From positions 1-32,040 of the forward strand of contig JALSNW010000037.1 in assembly GCA_026986785.1 (NCBI GenBank): a stretch of 32,040 nt of DNA, given 5' to 3'. The translations under genes were made by a program, and so were the position numbers. The DNA comes from Deltaproteobacteria bacterium (GTDB taxonomy: Bacteria > Desulfobacterota > Dissulfuribacteria > Dissulfuribacterales > QOAL01). This document shows, one piece after another, positions 14,810-24,528 of this stretch. Position 1 is the first letter of the stretch, and every line of letters starts with the position of its first letter. The notes under the pieces were generated by a model. That model ran no database searches, was not told the DNA's origin, and saw only the letters and a list, made by a program, of their open reading frames with translations.

Positions 14810-16672
14810 CTAAGGGCCAATAAAGAGCCTCAAGCTGTTTTCTTCTGGATCAAGCAGGTTAGATATCACTTTTTTCAGCCTTTTGAACTCTTTGCCATTT
14901 TTTACGAACCCCCTTCTGATCTCTACCTTTCGAACACAATCGAGTCGAGAGTCAGAGGCCTTGCAGAAATTTTCCCAAGACATTGGCCCGATCTGTCCCC
15001 TTTGATCCTTAGGGATTGCAGCTATCCTGTAAGGATGCGGGAATCTAACGATAAATTTCACTATAGAGGAATCACCCTTTCGAAAAAAAAGTGGGTTCTT
15101 TCTATTTTCAGGACATGTGGCCACTGTATCGAGTACAGAGATCCTCTGGACAGGAAGGATCCAAAAATCGCCACAGGTTATAATAAAATCCTTTACCTTG
15201 AAATTGGCCCTAAGACTAACTGGCCCAGCCAAAGGGTCCAGATTCGATATCTCTAAGGGAGCAAGCGGCACTGCCAAAGGGTTTAGTGAATGGAAAAATA
15301 TAGAGCTTGTAACCTTGAATTCCTTGGGCGTCAGATCTCGAAACATCTTCCTCGTTCCCTGGGCATCCCTACCGCTCCTGACGGTCTTGAAATGGTAATA
15401 GAGTATAGAGGGATCATTGCAATCCACTTCATAGCTTGAGACATTCCGGGTGGGACGCACATCCACTATGGGAACAAATTTCCCAGTTGCCAAGTCCAGG
15501 CCAAGTTGACCATCCATACCAGTGATACCTGGAGACAGGTCCTTAACATCAAAGGAATAAAACCTATGGCCAGTCTTTACCAATAGGGTATCGAGATAGA
15601 GGGGATATGGGCAGGATTTAATGTCCTTGACCCAGATGCCCCGTGAGCTGGCCATTATGAGATGGGGAGCAAGCCCCTTTGTTTTCAGTATCTGATAAAA
15701 CAGCAATGCAACATCTATCTGGCTGCCATAACCAGACATGAGGGTTTGTCTCGGGCTCTGGAAGACCAATTTCGTATCAAAAAAACTGATAGGCAATATC
15801 TCGAGTCTCTTAGTCAGCTTGGAGTAGATCTCATCCGCAGAGCCAGACAAGGACAAGGCTTTTAAGATACGTCCCAATCCAGCCTGTGTATCAGCCCGAG
15901 AGAAGATCCTATCGAACCAGGTTGCCACCTGCTGCCACGATCCAAAGGTGGAAAAGATGAGTGTCGATGCCATATTCTCCACAGGAGGACTGAAGGGTTC
16001 CTTTGGGGCCTTGTCAAGATCCTTTCCTGTCCACGTCAAGATCCTCCTGCCCTGTTGCATCTCAGTGGCGAAGTGGATATGCCTATCCTTCAGATGATAG
16101 TCGAAGTAGCTTCCCTCAGGCAGATCTATAACCACGGTCTTTTGCCTGCAAGGATCGGCCAATCTGAATGACTCAAGGCCCCAGAGGCCGATCCTTGCAT
16201 GTTTCACTATCTCGAGTTCTATCTTGCAGCCTTTCTCTATTACGGGGAAGTTGACAATCCTCAACCTGGCCCCTGAAAATATGGAGGCCCCCTGAGTAGA
16301 AGGATCAGCAATGTCGTTTATCTCTTTTGGGGACACCTCCACAATCTTTCCATCTGGCAGGATGGTCCTTGCAAACTTGACGTCAACTTTTTCATAGGCG
16401 CTATTGTAGCCAAAACGGAAATCCCCCCTATCCTTTTTCCCCTTATACGTGTTTATCAGGGTCTTAAAATAAAGGGTCAGGCTGTAACTGCCGTCAGGGT
16501 TGAGCTGATAGCGCTTCTTCACAATAAGGTTCACTGCATCAGGAGGCCTTACTTGATAGGCAGACCCCATTGCATGGCAATATGCAGCAGAAAAAGGCCA
16601 GGCGACACAAAACAAAAACATGGCCAAGAAAAAAGGGGGGATTGGTGAATCAATACCAGAAAAAATCTTCAT
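14810..16672 (-). CDS. Exported DUF3857 protein with degenerate transglutaminase-like domain
   Basis: The protein has 620 residues from ATG 16672, which has AGGA about seven bases upstream; an in-frame ATG at 16708 has no ribosome site and lies inside the upstream gene. A signal peptide (1-30, ending AAYC) could be a lipobox-like site, though this is unsure. A DUF3857 domain (about 45-235) is followed by a transglutaminase-like fold (about 255-380). Aligned with its upstream neighbour, the catalytic Cys position reads Gln in YGSQID (315-320), the His position is replaced in YLDTLL (359-364), and only the Asp of FYSFD (Asp375) remains. It is therefore probably not a peptidase and may bind rather than cleave. 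The C-terminal 200 residues show DUF3858-like beta features. It is second in a two-gene operon, 14 bases after the first. Confidence 0.8.
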   Translation of the reverse strand: MKIFSGIDSPIPPFFLAMFLFCVAWPFSAAYCHAMGSAYQVRPPDAVNLIVKKRYQLNPDGSYSLTLYFKTLINTYKGKKDRGDFRFGYNSAYEKVDVKFARTILPDGKIVEVSPKEINDIADPSTQGASIFSGARLRIVNFPVIEKGCKIELEIVKHARIGLWGLESFRLADPCRQKTVVIDLPEGSYFDYHLKDRHIHFATEMQQGRRILTWTGKDLDKAPKEPFSPPVENMASTLIFSTFGSWQQVATWFDRIFSRADTQAGLGRILKALSLSGSADEIYSKLTKRLEILPISFFDTKLVFQSPRQTLMSGYGSQIDVALLFYQILKTKGLAPHLIMASSRGIWVKDIKSCPYPLYLDTLLVKTGHRFYSFDVKDLSPGITGMDGQLGLDLATGKFVPIVDVRPTRNVSSYEVDCNDPSILYYHFKTVRSGRDAQGTRKMFRDLTPKEFKVTSSIFFHSLNPLAVPLAPLEISNLDPLAGPVSLRANFKVKDFIITCGDFWILPVQRISVLDTVATCPENRKNPLFFRKGDSSIVKFIVRFPHPYRIAAIPKDQRGQIGPMSWENFCKASDSRLDCVRKVEIRRGFVKNGKEFKRLKKVISNLLDPEENSLRLFIGP

Positions 16673-16686
16673 ATTCAGTCCTATCT

Positions 16687-18636
16687 CTATTTCAGTAACA
16701 TGAAACAAAATGGTGCGGCTTCCAAGGCAGCCTGCACCCTGAGGAGATCATGATATCGCTTTGTCGGAAATTCCAGCTTTTTTATGGCAAGTACACGCTC
16801 GATTGCCACACCGTGTGCCAATAAAGAAAAACCTGTCTTGTAGAGAAGGAATCTATTGTCTATGTCCTCTGTATCTGGCAGGCGTACCTTGGCATAAGGG
16901 ATATGGAAATCTATCGATTCCCTGACAACAGACTTGAAGCTATATCCGATCTTCAAGGGATAAGACCTCGAGGTCATGGATGCCTTGCCCAGGAGCCAAC
17001 TATCCATTGGGCCGAGGGGGCTGCATGCTGAAAATGGGAAAAAGAGTCCTGATTTTTTCAATGCATCAGGTAATTCGAACTTACAATGAAAAGAGAAACT
17101 TTTACTGTCGTCTGCTGGATCGGTCCAGGAGATCTCCTCTATCTTCAAGCGCGGCTGCCTCCTGAGCAAAAATACCCGGAGAAACCTCTCCTGCTCGTCC
17201 CTGGACTTCCTCATGAGGATACCTCGAAAAGCCGTATCGGCAAAACCTGAGGCCTTGGCCAAGAGCCTGCCCCTCAACAAGCCGCCCTTGACCAGGCTCT
17301 CCTTGATATCCATTGTAAAAAGATTGCTATCTGGTGGTTTGACAGGTGTTGTGAGAAGATCAGAGCCACCTGCAATGGCAGGAAGGCAGGAGGAATCCTG
17401 CTCGTAATCTGGCAGAAACTGGCGACTGGTCTCTGAAGTGGGGTCCATGTATATACGTGGATGCCCAGAGTCATCCAAGACTGCAGCAATGGCATGATTG
17501 AAATATGGTACCGGGATTTCCGGATCGAGCTTGGTTCCAGCACTCATTATCACAGGGGCTGCTGAAAAGCCTGCCTGGCGCAACATGGCGACCAATAGGG
17601 CCGCTTTGTCACGGCAAACCCCGTACCTCCTTGAAAATGTCAATGAAACATCATGGGGCTCGAAACCCGGCCGATTGGCCTCTTCAATGATCCCAAGATA
17701 TCGTATTTTACGAGCCACGAAGAAAAAAAGGGCATTGAGCTTCTCCCTTTCCGCAACCTTTCCCTTGATGAGCGCACTGACCTTTTCCTTGATGGCCTGA
17801 TTCACCTTGAGCTTGGGCTCCACCAGATGATAATACCAGACTGACACATCTTTCCAGGAGGACAAGGTAGAGAACAAAAGTCTCATGGCCACTGTCTGAA
17901 TATCTGGCATATAGGGTTCGGGGACTATTTCAGGCACATCGTTAAAGATCCAGCGATATCTGACCATCCCTTTTGATATGCCCTTATCGAACTTGACCTC
18001 AGCCCCCTTTGGCCTATCCTTTATCATATAATGTAAAGGAAGCCCCTTTGGCATGTCGATCTCCAACCTGATATTTTTCACAGGATAGGACTGTTGAATC
18101 ATGCTCCTTCCAAAGAAATGGCCTTGTATCATTGGTTTGAAATTGTCCGTTTCAACTATGTAATGGATGGTATCACCAGGACTCAGCTCAGGGACAAAGA
18201 CATTCATGACCTTGAGATTGGGATCGTAGATATTCATCCTGGCCAATGAGGATGGTGCTGTTAGGCTCGAATTCTTTTCCAGATCCACGAGAATGGATCT
18301 CCCCCCAGGTTTGATGACCTCCATCTTTAGGATCTTCAGCCTGGAATAATTCTTATTGATGTAAAAGTGCTGGACCTGCTGAGCCCTCTTCCCCTTTTCA
18401 TCCAGGATGGTCAAAAAGACCTCATCCAGATCCAGATAACGACCATCCTTTCTCACTATTATATGCTCATCCTCCCTATCGAGCACACAGTGGGCAGCGA
18501 TGCCCGCCTTAGAGACCTCCCTTGGGGGATAAGCTTGCTGAGACCAGGCCGGTTGAGATCCAAGGCCTATAGATGAGATAAGAGATAAGATAAAAAAACG
18601 AGGTGATACATGTAAGATACGGCCAATAATATTCAT
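16687..18636 (-). CDS. Exported DUF3857/transglutaminase-like protein with intact triad
   Basis: The protein has 649 residues from ATG 18636 behind GGGAGAG; a GTG four codons upstream (18648) overlaps the ribosome site and is less likely. A signal peptide (1-32, cleavage near AWSQ) is followed by DUF3857 (about 50-245), then a transglutaminase core. The catalytic residues are Cys341 in RYGVCRDKAALLVAMLR, His381 in YFNHAIAAV and Asp398 in YMDPTSE. The C-terminal part is beta-rich. Bacterial members of this architecture are periplasmic or surface proteins, usually thought to act as peptidases or cross-linking enzymes, and few have been tested. Its downstream partner has the same layout without the active residues, so the pair looks like a tandem duplication with one copy specialised. 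Confidence 0.85.
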   Translation of the reverse strand: MNIIGRILHVSPRFFILSLISSIGLGSQPAWSQQAYPPREVSKAGIAAHCVLDREDEHIIVRKDGRYLDLDEVFLTILDEKGKRAQQVQHFYINKNYSRLKILKMEVIKPGGRSILVDLEKNSSLTAPSSLARMNIYDPNLKVMNVFVPELSPGDTIHYIVETDNFKPMIQGHFFGRSMIQQSYPVKNIRLEIDMPKGLPLHYMIKDRPKGAEVKFDKGISKGMVRYRWIFNDVPEIVPEPYMPDIQTVAMRLLFSTLSSWKDVSVWYYHLVEPKLKVNQAIKEKVSALIKGKVAEREKLNALFFFVARKIRYLGIIEEANRPGFEPHDVSLTFSRRYGVCRDKAALLVAMLRQAGFSAAPVIMSAGTKLDPEIPVPYFNHAIAAVLDDSGHPRIYMDPTSETSRQFLPDYEQDSSCLPAIAGGSDLLTTPVKPPDSNLFTMDIKESLVKGGLLRGRLLAKASGFADTAFRGILMRKSRDEQERFLRVFLLRRQPRLKIEEISWTDPADDSKSFSFHCKFELPDALKKSGLFFPFSACSPLGPMDSWLLGKASMTSRSYPLKIGYSFKSVVRESIDFHIPYAKVRLPDTEDIDNRFLLYKTGFSLLAHGVAIERVLAIKKLEFPTKRYHDLLRVQAALEAAPFCFMLLK

Positions 18637-18688
18637 ATACTCTCCCACGGGCTTATAAGATGGGACTTCTTATCAAAGAATCTTTGTT

Positions 18689-18703
18689 CCTATGTGACAT
18701 AGG
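18689..18703. repeat. Small inverted repeat in the divergent region
   Basis: CCTATG (18689-18694) and CATAGG (18698-18703) flank TGA. It lies about 55 bases upstream of the transglutaminase operon start and may be an operator. It is short enough to be chance. Confidence 0.3.
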
Positions 18704-18815
18704 CTAATCTCAAATCCTGGGTCTTCCAATAGACAAGAAATCACATGGAAGAGTAAATCCAACATTTCCCTATCTTAGCGATCTATTTTAACGAGTGCAT
18801 CATTTTATTTAATGA

Positions 18816-18834
18816 TTGCAATATTTTTGTTGCA
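18816..18834. promoter_or_regulatory. TTGCAA/TTGCA inverted repeat, candidate operator
   Basis: TTGCAA (18816-18821) and TTGCA (18830-18834) form an inverted repeat with an 8-base T-rich spacer. It resembles the TTGCAA double box at 27266-27282 before znuA but with wider spacing. It lies in the 534-base divergent region 18637-19170, which holds no gene apart from possible upstream starts of rex. Confidence 0.35.
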
Positions 18835-18851
18835 CCTGATCAAAAAACATT

Positions 18852-18871
18852 ATGCCCCCTTAAGGGGACAT
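18852..18871. promoter_or_regulatory. 20-bp near-palindrome with CCCCTTAAGGGG core, candidate operator
   Basis: The perfect 12-bp palindrome CCCCTTAAGGGG (18856-18867) is extended by ATG on the left and CAT on the right with one mismatch pair between. It has no T run, so it looks like a protein site rather than a terminator. It lies between the transglutaminase operon and rex. It does not match the TTGTGAA/TTCACAA-type Rex operator. Confidence 0.45.
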
Positions 18872-19159
18872 CGGGAATACAGGCATTTTTGGAAGAGGCT
18901 CATAACTGTACGAAAATCTTGATTTTTTTGTCCTCAAGATTCGAATGGTCATTTATTATGTTTTAAATATATTCAATAAAATCATAACTTTATATCCATT
19001 ATGCCTGCAACTGAAATGATGCATTACAATGCTAACAATTCTCCTCGCAATAAAGATTTAGTATATAACCAATAGAAATCATTAACAAAAAAATGAGTAA
19101 CAAAAAATATTCTAAAAGGCACAAAGGTTGCTCTATCGGAGAAATGCAAAATATCGAGG

Positions 19160-19170: not shown

Positions 19171-19923
19171 GTGAAGAAGCAAAAGATACCAGCAGCAACA
19201 ATTATCAGACTATCGGTTTACCAGCGTTATCTCAAAAAACTCTTATCAAGGGGAGTAAAGGTGGTCTCATCAAACGAACTAGCCACCAGGGCCAATGTGA
19301 ATCCGGCCCAATTGAGGAAGGATCTTTCCTACTTTGGCAGATTTGGCGTTCGAGGGGTTGGGTATGATGTGGCCTCGCTGATGACCAGCATCTCTTCCAT
19401 CCTCGGGGTAATGGATGGCCATTCAGTGGCCTTGGTGGGAACAGGACCGATAGGTCAAGCCCTTTTGAGACACCGGGGTTTTGCAAAACAGGGCTACCGC
19501 TTTACAGCCGTATTTGACATAGAAACAGACAAAATAGGGGAAAAGTGTGCGGAAAGATTGCTTATAAGGCCCCTGAGTGAGCTGCCGGCCATTGTTGAAA
19601 GGGAGTCCATCAAACTGGCAGTGCTTGCAGTGCCTTCAGACTATGCCCAGGACGTAGCCGACCAATTGGTGAGATGTGGAATAAAAGGCATACTCAATTT
19701 TTCACCTACCAGGATCAAGGTGCCCAAGGGGGTGAGTGTGCAATACGTAGATTTCACCATCCTTCTTGATAGTCTCACCTACAACATCTGTAAGGCCCAA
19801 CAGGAGGCAGAAGAAAGCGGCCAAGACGACAAGGGCATCCCAGAACTCAAGTGGGGCAGAGAACACAGTTGGCCTGTGGTACAGTCCAATATCCGTGGTC
19901 ATGAAATAGGTATTAGTAGTTAG
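19171..19923 (+). CDS. rex: Redox-sensing transcriptional repressor Rex
   Basis: From GTG 19171 the protein has 250 residues. The N-terminal winged helix (about 5-80) has IPAATIIRLSVYQRYL, SSNELA and the Rex signature AQLRKDLSYFGRFGVRGVGY (46-65). The C-terminal Rossmann fold has GTGPIGQAL (91-99) for NAD(H). VPSDYAQDVADQL and ILNFSPTRIKVP are also typical, as is the C-terminal FTILLDSLTY swap helix (195-204). Rex senses the NADH/NAD+ ratio and represses anaerobic energy genes; in sulfate reducers it controls sulfate-reduction genes. About 40 residues at the C-terminus (GQDDKGIPELKWGREHS and onward) exceed the usual length. A start at ATG 19093 would add 26 charged residues not typical of Rex. 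It lies 60 bases before the TauE-like gene on the same strand. Confidence 0.95.
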   Translation: MKKQKIPAATIIRLSVYQRYLKKLLSRGVKVVSSNELATRANVNPAQLRKDLSYFGRFGVRGVGYDVASLMTSISSILGVMDGHSVALVGTGPIGQALLRHRGFAKQGYRFTAVFDIETDKIGEKCAERLLIRPLSELPAIVERESIKLAVLAVPSDYAQDVADQLVRCGIKGILNFSPTRIKVPKGVSVQYVDFTILLDSLTYNICKAQQEAEESGQDDKGIPELKWGREHSWPVVQSNIRGHEIGISS

Positions 19924-19983
19924 AGACTCTATGGGGATAGAGAGTTGCTACCATAGCATAATTTCGAGAGAGGAGAATACACC

Positions 19984-21663
19984 ATGAAAAGAAAGTTATT
20001 TATCAATCTAATGACGATCTTGCTACTTTTAGGATTTTCTGCTGTCAGTTCCTTTGCAATAGAGGCGACCCTCACCTCTGGAGACAGGGTAAAGGCTGGC
20101 AATCCGGTAACCGTCAAGGGCAAGATCGATCCGGGCCAAGATCTCTACGTTGTAATCTGCACCCACAGGATGTTCAAACCAGCAGATTCACCGGGTGCAA
20201 AAGAGAGGAAGAAACTCACTAAAAAATTTGGTGATACTGCCATTCCCACCACTTATTACGTAATCACCAACAAACCAGAAAACCTGGCCACTCCAAAGAG
20301 CGTGGCCATGGGCCAGACAAGCGGCCCCTTTGCCTTCCCACCTTTCAAGTTCATGGTGAGGATCAACAAGATCAAAAAGTGGACAGACATACCTGAGAAC
20401 GTGAAAGGCTTACTGGGACCCATCAACTCAGCTGCCCAGTGGAAGTTTCTCACCTTCACCCACGAAAAGAAATTTGGCATCAATACAATAGTAAAGGAAA
20501 AACCACTCGGTGGTGGTACTGCCAGGATGGTCCTTACCGATTACAATGCCCAGAGGGAAGACTGGAACAAGGGCACTACACTCAAGTTCGACAAGGCCAC
20601 AGGGGAATTCGAGATGACCATGACCCCTTACAAGAACCTTGCCCCTGAGACCAAGCTCGATGTCTGGGTAAATGGCCAGAAGACAAACGCCTTCTCTATC
20701 GAACCATCCACATTCTATTTCAAGACCGGTGGCTGCTACATGAATCCTCTCGTGGTTCTGGGAGGTGCATTTGTCATTGGTGTCCTCTTCGTCATCATGG
20801 GCGCTGCAGGTGGTCTCTTTACTGCTGCATATCAGATCACAGTCATTGGTACAAAGGGCCCCATCGGTATCAATGCCGCCAATACCATCAAGCCCACAAA
20901 CCTGTTCCTGACGCTGTGTTCTCCGCTTACAGGTCTTATCAGCTACTTCAAGAGCAAGCGTTTTGCCTGGCCGGTGGCCATCTTCTTTGCCATAGGTATC
21001 TTGATCGGCGCATTCTTCATAGGACCAACGTTTTCTGCCAAGTACCTCCCGCTCAAGGCCTATAAGTTCTATCTGGGTATAATCTGTCTTCTCATTGGCT
21101 TTAAGCTCTTCCATGAGAGCCTTCCCAGCACCATCGAGAAGAAGAAGGCCCTGAAGGCCATCATCCAGAAGTTCAACAAGGCCGTTGAGGAAGCCAAGAA
21201 GACCGGCAAGGCCGCAGAGCTTGGAAAGGTCGAATTCGACAAGTTCAACTTCATCAAATTCGACATGAGGTTCTGGGGTGAGACATTCGTTGCCAAGCCT
21301 CTGACCATGCTTCTCGGCGGTATAATAATGGGTATGATCGCCTCTTCATTCGGTGTTGGTGGTGGTTTCATGTTCATGCCCTTCATGACCACATTCATGG
21401 GATACCCCATGTACTTGGCCGTTCCTATCGCATTGGCAGGTACATTTGCAACATCCCTTGGTGGAATCTCCAAGTACATCCTCATGGGTTATCAGCCTGA
21501 TTGGATCATGGCAGCCTGTATTGCCGGTGGGGCCATTGGTGGAGGAATGGTGGGACCAAAGATCCAGAAAAAGCTCCCGGAGATCTTCCTGAAGAGGATG
21601 CTGGCCTTGGCACTTATCATCGTATTCATGAAGTACACAAAGCTTCTGCCATTCATGAGATAA
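19984..21663 (+). CDS. TauE/SafE-family permease with large exported N-terminal domain
   Basis: This is a 559-residue protein. A signal peptide or signal anchor (1-25) is followed by a soluble, probably periplasmic domain (26-250) that begins like an Ig-type beta domain (ATLTSGDRVKAGNPVTVKG). The TauE/SafE permease follows in two halves: helices from about 255 to 375 with GAAGGLFTAAYQ and GINAANTIKPTN, then helices from about 435 to 555 with SSFGVGGGFMFMP and PIALAGTFATSLGG. Between the halves is a Lys/Glu-rich loop of about 60 residues (380-435), presumably cytoplasmic. Family members export sulfite, sulfoacetate or related organosulfur anions. Codons are strongly biased (AAG, TTC, GCC), as in highly expressed genes. 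GAGAGGAG sets the start. Its position behind rex suggests redox-linked energy or sulfur metabolism; the substrate is inferred, not shown. Confidence 0.85.
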   Translation: MKRKLFINLMTILLLLGFSAVSSFAIEATLTSGDRVKAGNPVTVKGKIDPGQDLYVVICTHRMFKPADSPGAKERKKLTKKFGDTAIPTTYYVITNKPENLATPKSVAMGQTSGPFAFPPFKFMVRINKIKKWTDIPENVKGLLGPINSAAQWKFLTFTHEKKFGINTIVKEKPLGGGTARMVLTDYNAQREDWNKGTTLKFDKATGEFEMTMTPYKNLAPETKLDVWVNGQKTNAFSIEPSTFYFKTGGCYMNPLVVLGGAFVIGVLFVIMGAAGGLFTAAYQITVIGTKGPIGINAANTIKPTNLFLTLCSPLTGLISYFKSKRFAWPVAIFFAIGILIGAFFIGPTFSAKYLPLKAYKFYLGIICLLIGFKLFHESLPSTIEKKKALKAIIQKFNKAVEEAKKTGKAAELGKVEFDKFNFIKFDMRFWGETFVAKPLTMLLGGIIMGMIASSFGVGGGFMFMPFMTTFMGYPMYLAVPIALAGTFATSLGGISKYILMGYQPDWIMAACIAGGAIGGGMVGPKIQKKLPEIFLKRMLALALIIVFMKYTKLLPFMR

Positions 21664-21682: not shown

Positions 21683-21711
21683 AAAAAGGCCGCCTTCAAG
21701 GCGGCCTTTTT
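21683..21711 (+). terminator. Intrinsic terminator of the TauE-like gene
   Basis: AAAAAGGCCGCC (21683-21694) pairs perfectly with GGCGGCCTTTTT (21700-21711) around TTCAA. It lies 20 bases after the stop. The 205 bases between here and the convergent feoB stop show no gene. Confidence 0.95.
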
Positions 21712-21916: not shown

Positions 21917-24094
21917 TCAAATACCATGAGAAAAGAGATAGCATGATTGCCTTATGACAAAGGCCACTACCCATGCCAAGATCATCAGATAACTGACACT
22001 GAAAACAGTCCAACCTACAGAGCCTGTCTCGCGCCAGATGGTTGCCACAGTGACCAGGCATGGAACGTAAATCAGAACAAAAACCATGAATGCAAGGGCT
22101 GTCACCTTGTCGATGCCACTTTCTTTCAAGGCCTTTTTCAGGCTGGCAGAATCATCTTCCCCTGTCTGATAGAGCACTCCCATGGTACTCACCACTACTT
22201 CCTTTGCCACAAAACCAGTAACAAGGCTTACCCCAAGCTTCCAATCAAATCCCAGAGGCGCTATCAGAGGCTCTATGGCATGGCCTATCTTCCCGATATA
22301 ACTCTTGGAAAGCCGTTCTTCTTCCTTGGAGATCTTCAATCTCTTCAGCCTTTCGACCAGGGTAGAAATCTCCTTTTTGCCTTGCCCATGGGAAGATTTG
22401 AGAGCGTTGATCTTGGAGGTCAGTTCCTGGAGCTGTCTATCATAATCTTGAGAATACCGTATATCCATTGGAAATGCGCCAAGAAACCATATCACAATGG
22501 AAAAGGCCAAGACTACACCGCCCATCTTCTGGAGATACACCTTGCCCTTTTCCCACATGTGTATGACAACGCTCTTCAGCGTTGGCAGACGATAAGGGGG
22601 CAGTTCGAGGACAAAGGGGGCACTTTGTCCCTTGAATATGGTATGACTAAATATCTGTCCCACCACAATGGCCAACACCACACCCAACAGGTAGATAGCA
22701 AAGATCACATTACCAGCTGTCTCGGGGAAGAAAGCCCCAGCCATCAAGATGTACACAGGAAGTCTTGCAGAACAACTCATCAGTGGATTGATGAGTATGG
22801 TCAAAAGCCGATCTCTCCTGGTTTCCAAGGTACGGGCGGCCATGATTGCTGGTACGTTACATCCAAATCCCATGAGGAGCGGTATAAAAGACTTTCCATG
22901 CAGGCCCAAGGTGTGCATGATCCTGTCCATGATAAAGGCTGCCCTGGCCATGTAACCCGTGTCTTCAAAAAGACTGATACCAAGAAAGAGCAAGAGGATA
23001 TTTGGCAAAAATACGATCACCCCTCCAACTCCACCTATTACACCCTCGACGATCATGTCCTTGAGAAGACCGTCAGGCAGTATTCTCGAGGCGAATTGGG
23101 CCAGAAGATCTACCCCTTTCTCTATCCATTCCACCGGATAGGCACCGAGACTGAAAGTGGCCTGAAACAATACATACATGAAAAAAAGCAAGATTGGAAA
23201 ACCAAGGACCCTGTTTGTCAGTACCTGATCGATCTTGTCCGAGATGGTCTTTTTGGCCACGGCTGAAAGACGCATGGTCTCCTTCAAGGCGCCAGCAATG
23301 AAGCCATAGCGTGCCTCTGCTATTACCGTCTCCGCATCTTCTTGAAAGATTGACAGTATATGTTGCCTACTTTTTTCCACCTGGGCCATGATGTGATCTG
23401 CCACTGGTGATCTTCTCACCCGTTCCTCGACAATCTTGTCTTTTTCCAAAAGCTTTACTGCCAGCCACCTTGGATAGTAACTCCTGTTCAGATCTTGATC
23501 CTTTTTCAAGACCTGCCTGATTTTTGATATCTCTTCTTCTATCTCTCGACCATAATTGATGTGTATGTGACGCGACGTAGGATCTTTCCCCTCTGCAACC
23601 TCCAGGACTGTATCCAAGAGCTCCTCTATACCCTCACCCTTGGTGCCAACTGTCTCTACGATAGGGACACCAAGGAGCCTGGAAAGTTGCGGATAATCTA
23701 TCTTGATACCCCTCATCCTTGCCACATCCACCATATTCATGGCAAAGACCAGGGGGATATTCAATTCGATGAGCTGTACAGCCAAGTAGAGATTCCTCTC
23801 AAGGTTAGAGGCATCTAATATGTCCACGACCACATCTGGATGTTCTTCCAATATGAAATTCCTGGCCACGACCTCTTCGACAGAATAGGCTGTGAGGGAA
23901 TAAATCCCTGGTAGATCTACGACCGTGATCTCCCTGCCCTTGTGGACCAATCTTCCCTCCTTTTTCTCCACAGTAACCCCTGACCAATTACCCACCTTTT
24001 GTCTGGCCCCTGTTAGCTGATTGAAGATGGTGGTCTTGCCTGCATTGGGATTCCCAGCAAGGGCCAATGTTATGTGTTCTGGCATAGAATCCAT
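21917..24094 (-). CDS. feoB: Ferrous iron transporter FeoB
   Basis: The protein has 725 residues from ATG 24094, which overlaps the stop of the preceding gene as TGATG; a TTG one codon earlier also exists. The N-terminal G domain has G1 GNPNAGKTT (14-22), switch T in GVTVE, G3 DLPG (60-63) and G4 NMVD (120-123). Then comes the helical GDI region, and a membrane part with two gate repeats (LLMGFGCNVPAIMAARTLETRRDRLLTILINPLMSCSARLP and VTGFVAKEVVVSTMG segments). A predicted coiled stretch of about 70 residues (QLQELTSKINALK and onward) lies between the gates. FeoB imports Fe(II) across the inner membrane under anoxic conditions. No feoA or feoC lies nearby; instead it closes a zinc/manganese-type ABC operon. 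Confidence 0.97.
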   Translation of the reverse strand: MDSMPEHITLALAGNPNAGKTTIFNQLTGARQKVGNWSGVTVEKKEGRLVHKGREITVVDLPGIYSLTAYSVEEVVARNFILEEHPDVVVDILDASNLERNLYLAVQLIELNIPLVFAMNMVDVARMRGIKIDYPQLSRLLGVPIVETVGTKGEGIEELLDTVLEVAEGKDPTSRHIHINYGREIEEEISKIRQVLKKDQDLNRSYYPRWLAVKLLEKDKIVEERVRRSPVADHIMAQVEKSRQHILSIFQEDAETVIAEARYGFIAGALKETMRLSAVAKKTISDKIDQVLTNRVLGFPILLFFMYVLFQATFSLGAYPVEWIEKGVDLLAQFASRILPDGLLKDMIVEGVIGGVGGVIVFLPNILLLFLGISLFEDTGYMARAAFIMDRIMHTLGLHGKSFIPLLMGFGCNVPAIMAARTLETRRDRLLTILINPLMSCSARLPVYILMAGAFFPETAGNVIFAIYLLGVVLAIVVGQIFSHTIFKGQSAPFVLELPPYRLPTLKSVVIHMWEKGKVYLQKMGGVVLAFSIVIWFLGAFPMDIRYSQDYDRQLQELTSKINALKSSHGQGKKEISTLVERLKRLKISKEEERLSKSYIGKIGHAIEPLIAPLGFDWKLGVSLVTGFVAKEVVVSTMGVLYQTGEDDSASLKKALKESGIDKVTALAFMVFVLIYVPCLVTVATIWRETGSVGWTVFSVSYLMILAWVVAFVIRQSCYLFSHGI

Positions 24095-24528
24095 CAATCG
24101 CCTTCCCTACCGTATTGGTTTACAGATTCTTCGTCTATCCGAAATGACGTTGCCTTGAATATAGCAATCTTCTTGTTGTCTTCATTTAAAAGCGTGGCAA
24201 GATAAACTCCTGTCCTTCTACCTTGGTATTCCTGCTGACATATTACACTTACCACGGAGCCCTTCTTCACTGGCCTGAAATAATTGATGGATGCCTCGAT
24301 GGCCAGGGCCATTTTCCCGTGACAATTGGCAGCCAAGGCAAATGCCACGTCCGCCAATGCGAAAAGGGCAGCGCCGTGACAAAGGCGGGCAGCATTGAGA
24401 TGATTTGGCCCCACCTTCATAGAAAGCCTCGCCCGCCCTGGTGCAGTCTCCTCTATCTCCATATCGAAAAGGGCTATGAGCCTGTCATGTTGACGTATAT
24501 GCTCTGTTACTTTGCTTACTGTATCCAT
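24094..24528 (-). CDS. PaaI-like hotdog-fold thioesterase
   Basis: The protein is 144 residues from ATG 24528 (GGGAGAG about eight bases before it). The longer frame upstream to 24735 has a Cys/Arg-rich, non-family N-terminus and is rejected. The hotdog signature is HGAALFALADVAFALA (51-66), with the catalytic-type Asp60, and ASINYFRPVKKG (79-90). PaaI-type enzymes hydrolyse aryl- or acyl-CoA thioesters. It lies between znuB and feoB, overlapping feoB by one base, so it is translated with the metal-uptake genes. Why a thioesterase is here is not clear. Confidence 0.88.
   Translation of the reverse strand: MDTVSKVTEHIRQHDRLIALFDMEIEETAPGRARLSMKVGPNHLNAARLCHGAALFALADVAFALAANCHGKMALAIEASINYFRPVKKGSVVSVICQQEYQGRRTGVYLATLLNEDNKKIAIFKATSFRIDEESVNQYGREGD

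Follow-up and report, generated by a model that had tools for sequence, protein, structure and literature searches.

What does a TauE/SafE permease do when it carries an exported domain of its own and is encoded directly behind rex, the gene of a redox sensor? The question is raised by a stretch of 32,040 nucleotides (hereinafter referred to as the window) from a Deltaproteobacteria bacterium of the order Dissulfuribacterales (GenBank assembly GCA_026986785.1, contig JALSNW010000037.1). The window is contig C37 of genome G000 (2.59 Mb, 99% complete); G labels denote genomes and L labels denote loci. An earlier note, made from the letters alone, had described rex followed by such a permease, and this was confirmed by family matches, coordinates, and domains conserved in relatives. 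The permease is a TSUP (TauE/SafE) variant with a new exported domain in a system that is partly known. In the reading preferred here, to which we give a probability of roughly 0.48, it takes up a sulfur oxyanion, most likely thiosulfate, which would feed a cytoplasmic reductase, and it forms with rex a two-gene unit under sigma-54 control.

Architecture of the permease

The permease gene (19,984 to 21,663, forward strand) encodes 559 amino acids. The TauE transmembrane domain at residues 259–550 (20,758 to 21,633) matched Pfam TauE (PF01925) with 99.2 bits against a gathering score of 32.6. Two halves of four helices each were predicted by the structure model in use (53 sequences, mean pLDDT 81, pTM 0.76), at residues 255–288, 298–323, 329–354, and 357–379 in the first half, and 439–456/461–472, 476–500, 507–528, and 533–551 in the second. 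This model replaced a first one of 18 sequences, the membrane part of which was poor (pLDDT 54.6). In these features the protein resembles TSUP proteins such as TauE of Cupriavidus necator, but it adds a signal peptide, an exported immunoglobulin (Ig)-like domain of about 225 residues, and a long charged loop. The signal peptide (residues 1–25; 19,984 to 20,058) was read directly from the sequence, with no predictor, and the hydrophobic N-terminus is kept in relatives. The exported domain follows at residues 26–254 (20,059 to 20,745). As the earlier note had stated, a charged loop of about 60 residues lies between the two halves (residues 380–438; 21,121 to 21,297), with 14 K/R and 8 D/E. Provided that the signal peptide acts as such, the exported domain and this lysine-rich loop most likely face the outside. 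The same domains were kept in 17 aligned orthologues at 72–95% identity, so the architecture is more than a matter of chance.

No solved relative of the permease was found by sequence in the PDB. The top fold match of the membrane part, BacA/UppP (6fmt; Z 11.9, 238 residues, 4.3 Å), was not used, since helical bundles reach such Z scores by chance. The permease was the most codon-biased of 14 genes tested in the window: its effective codon number (46.8) was below that of all the others, and C-ending codons made up a larger share of its F/Y/H/N/D codons (0.64) than in any other gene (0.26–0.49). The bias proposed earlier is therefore present, but it is moderate rather than strong.

The exported domain was modeled as an Ig-like beta-sandwich with a large helical insertion. 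Its best fold match in the PDB was an antibody V domain (Ig V-type; Z 8.5, 98 residues, rmsd 3.3 Å), which may reflect only a common arrangement. Foldseek gave weak Ig matches for the permease, none of them at E ≤ 0.001, and no sequence match to the exported domain was found in the PDB. Outside TauE, no Pfam family matched the permease at E < 0.01, and none matched two orthologous N-terminal domains at E up to 10. The N-terminal region, for which the earlier note had called for a structure prediction, thus has a predicted Ig-like core and corresponds to no known Pfam domain; the role of periplasmic receptor, which that note had also suggested, is putative. Across 21 relatives, the motifs FAFPPF, GQT-G, and KFG-NT were invariant and GGGNAR nearly so.

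A profile of the exported domain found it in 22 of 395 genomes sampled from the phylum Desulfobacterota. Among the 25 matches, 23 shared one open frame of 548–607 residues with TauE, one was a fragment at a contig end, and one was a weak match to a split form of the permease (G319); no stand-alone copy was present among them. The large N-terminal domain noted earlier is thus a fixed component of the permease, joined to TauE in members from across Desulfobacterota. No report of this exported domain on TauE was found in the passages of open-access papers that were searched.

In a survey of 41 genomes of the order, the fused permease was found in 24 and the split form in five. The split form, seen for instance in G023, is encoded by two genes, one of about 430 residues for the signal peptide, a related domain, and four helices, and another of 129–131 residues for the second half. 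Alignment of the fused and split N-terminal domains by HHalign gave a probability of 17% (E 0.0014, 63 columns), the fused-domain profile matched the split-type protein of G319 at 4.4e-4, and L144 was 55% identical to the split-type L125; by these comparisons the two domains appear related, with homology not proven. A scan of named genomes yielded 73 loci, labeled as Desulfobulbus, Desulfocapsa, Desulforhopalus, Desulfopila, Desulfofustis, other Desulfobacterota, and unspecified proteobacterial metagenome-assembled genomes (MAGs). Because of its strict patterns, the scan would pass over distant relatives; of ten distant members, eight were at 37–42% identity. The earlier note had asked whether this form is limited to sulfur-reducing or disproportionating bacteria. 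It is not: the named hosts include the sulfate reducers Desulfobulbus, Desulforhopalus, and Desulfopila as well as Desulfocapsa, which comprises disproportionators. Dissulfurimicrobium hydrothermale has been described as an obligate sulfur disproportionator (PMC8780430).

Linkage to rex and a sigma-54-type promoter

The rex gene (19,171 to 19,923, forward strand) encodes 250 amino acids from a GTG start and lies 60 bp upstream of the permease on the same strand. Its product, of the NAD(H)-sensing repressor family, exceeded the NCBIfam cut-offs of NF003993 (263.9 bits against 217) and NF003995 (255.5 against 126). A longer reading frame is possible from ATG 19,093; the GTG start was preferred because the starts of relatives align with it and because a sigma-54-like promoter lies inside the longer version. 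An extra C-terminal tail (19,830 to 19,923), ending in EHSWPV-QSN, was kept in most relatives, including the second rex gene at L129.

In the order survey, 28 of 31 rex genes were directly upstream of such a permease on the same strand, including those next to split permeases and both copies in two-copy genomes. Among these related genomes, rex was found in 22 of the 29 with the permease and in none of the 12 without it; three weak matches (G010, G012, and G031; E 6.5e-5 to 8.6e-4) were left out of the counts. As the genomes share ancestry, Fisher p values would overstate the significance of this and of the co-occurrences given below. The pair is therefore real and conserved in the order. Among the named loci, 21 of 73, all from close relatives, had rex on the locus DNA and the remaining 52 had none, which indicates that the pairing is ancient within the order and not general. 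One more rex gene (L129) was located beside a molybdenum oxidoreductase.

The earlier note had also suggested redox control through Rex, for which the DNA gave no consistent operator: a scan of 18 loci with six consensus forms returned scattered matches with one to four mismatches and no conserved place. Instead, a sigma-54-like −24/−12 promoter, AGGCAC-N5-TTGCT (19,117 to 19,132, forward strand), was identified 54 bp upstream of the rex GTG, in a conserved place. It is preceded by two putative enhancer sites, each with one mismatch to the palindrome TGCAAC-N6-GTTGCA, namely TGCAAT-N6-GTTGCA (18,817 to 18,834) and, 189 bp beyond it, TGCAAC-N6-GATGCA (19,006 to 19,023); the promoter element begins about 95 bp past the second. 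This combination of a −24/−12 element with paired upstream sites is that of an NtrC-type sigma-54 operon.

The same arrangement was found in relatives, where pairs of the palindrome stand about 180–190 bp apart upstream of rex and some repeat in the gap between rex and the permease. The 41 order genomes contained 35 perfect palindromes, against 0 for a reversed-pattern control, and 29 of the 35 lay at most 3.1 kb upstream of the permease. The two one-mismatch sites of the window were among eight such places in its genome, against one for the control. Sigma-54-like sites were present at 14 of 22 rex loci (0.39 expected) and at 10 of 50 loci without rex (0.74 expected). These figures cover 72 of the 73 named loci, one being too short, and are unbiased, whereas a smaller set of 33 loci included five chosen for earlier hits (L056, L061, L067, L071, and L102). 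For six perfect palindromes, no permease lay downstream on the same contig (G007:C55:41120, G012:C48:18998, G032:C1:26509, G032:C26:19048, G020:C250:155, and G023:C1:1197609); that at G020:C250:155 adjoins the response regulator of G020 at a contig end. Several genomes of one genus harbored two permease copies (L045–L047, L100, and L037–L041), each with its own rex and palindromes and with differing neighborhoods.

The likely binder of the palindrome was sought among the conserved genes. A response regulator (at least 49% identical), assigned by Pfam as a sigma-54 activator in the member from L138, was found in 28 of the 29 permease genomes and in none of the other 12; 11 rows at 40–45% were left out as paralogues, and partial rows in G005 and G018 were counted as present. 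In the window genome the regulator is encoded at G000:C35:90943-92331. The palindrome might instead be the operator of this lineage's Rex, so that the pair would be directly controlled by NADH; the sites do lie upstream of rex and within the rex–permease gap, and rex was found only in permease-bearing genomes of the order. We regard this as quite unlikely, as sites with 0–1 mismatches remain at the permease in five genomes with the regulator and without a convincing rex (G005, G007, G010, G012, and G025), the sigma-54-type promoter lies about 95 bp further on, and the half-site is dissimilar to known Rex operators. Since the sites persist without rex, and since G028, which lacks the regulator, also lacks the sites, the comparison favors the sigma-54 response regulator as the binder. 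G008 gives no information on upstream sites, as its permease stands at the end of a contig.

A sigma-54 signature is thus better supported than Rex control. In the preferred reading, rex and the permease would be transcribed as one unit; an NtrC-family response regulator, on binding to the TGCAAC-N6-GTTGCA sites, would activate the sigma-54-type promoter, and Rex may tie the unit to the NADH/NAD+ state. By description, not by motif, this resembles the TSUP/PSE transporter operons of D. vulgaris, which are reported to be under sigma-54 and enhancer-binding proteins (PMC4641369). A GC-rich hairpin followed by a T run (21,683 to 21,711, forward strand), read from the sequence and missing from the output of a terminator scan, may mark the end of the unit.

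Beyond the unit, an FeoB gene (21,917 to 24,097, reverse strand) adjoins it in the window and is also close in L059, L062, L083, L101, L124, L125, and L131. On the other side, a pair of DUF3857 proteins, the second with a transglutaminase core, is encoded at 14,810 to 18,648 (reverse strand), and the same pair stands beside rex in L037–L043, L098, and L101.

Partner reductase, related clusters, and the probable substrate

A molybdenum reductase (at least 73% identical) was present in 27 of the 29 permease genomes and in none of the other 12; 13 rows at 57–58% were left out as paralogues, and partial rows in G010 and G031 were counted as present. Its best NCBIfam match was PhsA, and it was taken as cytoplasmic because no evident export signal was read from its sequence. 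At the 73 named loci, neighbors of the permease included a conserved membrane protein of about 200 residues (hereinafter SMALL; 49 loci), the PhsA-like oxidoreductase (31), and a 150-residue iron-sulfur (Fe-S) protein (16), as well as a histidine kinase or sigma-54 regulator (45), CheY (22), a PPDK-like protein (11), and a phosphatase (10). All these counts are minima, as contigs were often cut. The reductase was found at 29 of the 52 loci without rex and at 2 of the 21 with it. Of the ten distant members, seven had the reductase and seven had SMALL beside the permease. SMALL (e.g., L131, 4660–5328, reverse strand; L101, 4205–4834, forward strand) showed a sub-threshold match to EMC3/TMCO1-like proteins. 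At L127 (1–5900), many short open reading frames with the recurring peptides RPHAGGD and IHAPTRGAT were observed, presumably a CRISPR array read in frame.

The tie to sulfur metabolism assumed in the earlier note is therefore borne out by the reductase and Fe-S neighbors in many relatives and by co-occurrence. Neither outcome that the note had named as refuting its reading was obtained: the N-terminal region did not prove to be a known unrelated domain, and the gene did not turn up apart from sulfur metabolism and rex in every relative. This conservation with rex or sigma-54 signals and a molybdenum reductase also distinguishes the family from other TSUP proteins. A TauE permease and PhsAB are reported to rank within the top 11 transcripts by abundance in Ca. 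Desulfobulbus rimicarensis (PMC7117923); its MAG holds the permease orthologue L088, which may be the transcribed TauE.

A second line of evidence comes from Desulfovibrio. In D. vulgaris and D. alaskensis, nitrate resistance was reported for mutants of rex and for mutants of a cluster encoding TauE, a hypothetical protein of about 195 aa, PtxB, a kinase, CheY, PPDK, and a dual-specificity phosphatase (PMC4001038). Korte et al. (2014) proposed a leaky thiosulfate transporter there, quoting impairments with thiosulfate as unpublished data; the transposon fitness of DVU0250 in a pool (−5.82) is given as at odds with that of its G20 homologue (PMC4001038). The cluster (DVU0251–DVU0245; Dde_0597–0605; PMC4001038) shares with the present system a genetic link to Rex, and its order recurs in relatives within the phylum, in G415 as far as PPDK and in G363 with the phosphatase too. 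It differs from the window, which has only rex and the permease and lacks the cluster order. In G415, TauE is followed by a protein of 212 aa, a phosphonate-type binding protein, a kinase, CheY, and PPDK. In G363, one side holds a short TauE, a weak SMALL match, and a molybdenum reductase, and the other a regulator-like gene, a binding protein, a kinase, CheY, PPDK, and a phosphatase. Split-type permeases adjoin PPDK and the phosphatase in G154, G181, G311, and G330. These gene orders indicate a single syntenic system in which the permease may be fused, split, or short. Builds that contain the exported domain showed no separate binding protein, with the exception of G319, in which a split-type permease has a phosphonate-type binding protein nearby. 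A short TauE paralogue of the window genome (G000:C21:3359-4315; L184) was considered as the counterpart of the nitrate cluster and rejected, as its neighbors were ArsR-type and efflux-like genes.

The PhsA-like partner and the Desulfovibrio genetics together point to thiosulfate. A sulfur oxyanion, of which thiosulfate is the likeliest, would pass through the permease from the periplasm to the cytoplasm; the exported domain and the lysine-rich loop may help to capture or gate the anion; and the anion would be cleaved inside by the PhsA-like oxidoreductase with its 150-residue Fe-S partner. The opposite direction, export of sulfite or another sulfur anion from the reductase or from reverse sulfate reduction, as proposed for TauE of C. 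necator, would fit the characterized family member, for which sulfite export is described (cited in PMC5840216 and PMC3949148), and sulfite is a product of thiosulfate cleavage. Export appears rather unlikely to us, given that loss of the permease in the syntenic Desulfovibrio cluster protected cells from external nitrate, which was read by its authors as import (PMC4001038), and that a separate periplasmic phosphonate-type binding protein, typical of uptake, is encoded near some short permeases.

If the main acceptor imported were sulfate or sulfite and not thiosulfate, this would suit the proposal of TSUP proteins as sulfate transporters of sulfate reducers (PMC5840216). The window genome contains dsrA, and a TauE homologue of A. 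fulgidus has been proposed for sulfite import. We hold such a substrate to be unlikely because the co-occurring enzyme is PhsA-like and not of the sulfate pathway. It is improbable, furthermore, that the permease is mainly a transporter-like sensor signaling anion supply to a neighboring two-component system or to Rex. In favor of a sensor, genes for histidine kinases, sigma-54 regulators, and CheY-like proteins often adjoin it, and the exported domain is bigger than transport requires; the moderate codon bias, together with the high expression of a TauE in a relative, fits a bulk transporter instead, and no contact between permease and kinase is known.

Several observations weigh against thiosulfate uptake by a sigma-54-controlled permease feeding this reductase. 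The reductase fell below the NCBIfam cut-off for PhsA (PRK15488; 517.3 bits against 694) and is hence called PhsA-like only; G006 and G008 have the permease without the close form of the reductase; and the window genome encodes the reductase on a different contig (G000:C24), not beside the permease, with no palindrome of at most one mismatch on that contig. SMALL, which lies directly upstream of rex in the sisters L083 and L101, is absent from the window genome and left no recognizable remnant at 18,650 to 19,090. G028 has a split permease without rex, the regulator, or palindromes. The positively charged loop would be periplasmic, contrary to the positive-inside rule, and the Desulfovibrio permease DVU0251 (963 bp, 320 aa; PMC4001038) is, judged by its length, too short for the exported domain. 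Sulfite export, the function after which the family is named, counts on the same side.

Possible significance for sulfur-oxyanion respiration

Two known groups of transporters are comparable. The TSUP "clade B" of putative CysZ transporters is likewise a conserved clade in sulfate reducers with no assigned function; it is likened here by description only, and the account of it in PMC5840216, as far as drawn on here, makes no mention of a fused domain. SoxT and YeeE import sulfur compounds (thiosulfate) for dissimilation and also act in signaling, but they are of the YeeE-like family and are described from sulfur oxidizers (PMC11582611).

A wider and more tentative reading, which we consider possible but doubtful, is that of a sulfur-oxyanion respiration module across Desulfobacterota that is turned on by a sigma-54 enhancer system dedicated to it and that, within one order, has a co-transcribed Rex of its own. 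As part of that same doubtful reading, three permease builds would be interchangeable: a fused single chain; a permease divided between its halves into two chains, the first of which bears a related domain; and a short permease accompanied by a free-standing phosphonate-type binding protein. The fused domain would then work as the binding protein, and the same import route would let nitrate enter and poison Desulfovibrio.

To our knowledge, no transporter has been proven for the entry of thiosulfate into sulfate reducers and sulfur disproportionators. The nitrate-resistance cluster, left with a hypothesis in the report of its mutants (PMC4001038), is now connected with Rex, with a family of permeases that have a new exported domain, with a PhsA-like reductase, and with a near-dedicated DNA signature. 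Related gene clusters may account for the poisoning of well-studied sulfate-reducing bacteria by nitrate. If true, this would be an uncommon design among secondary transporters, the exported domain being part of the permease and, it appears, exchangeable for a binding protein encoded on its own.

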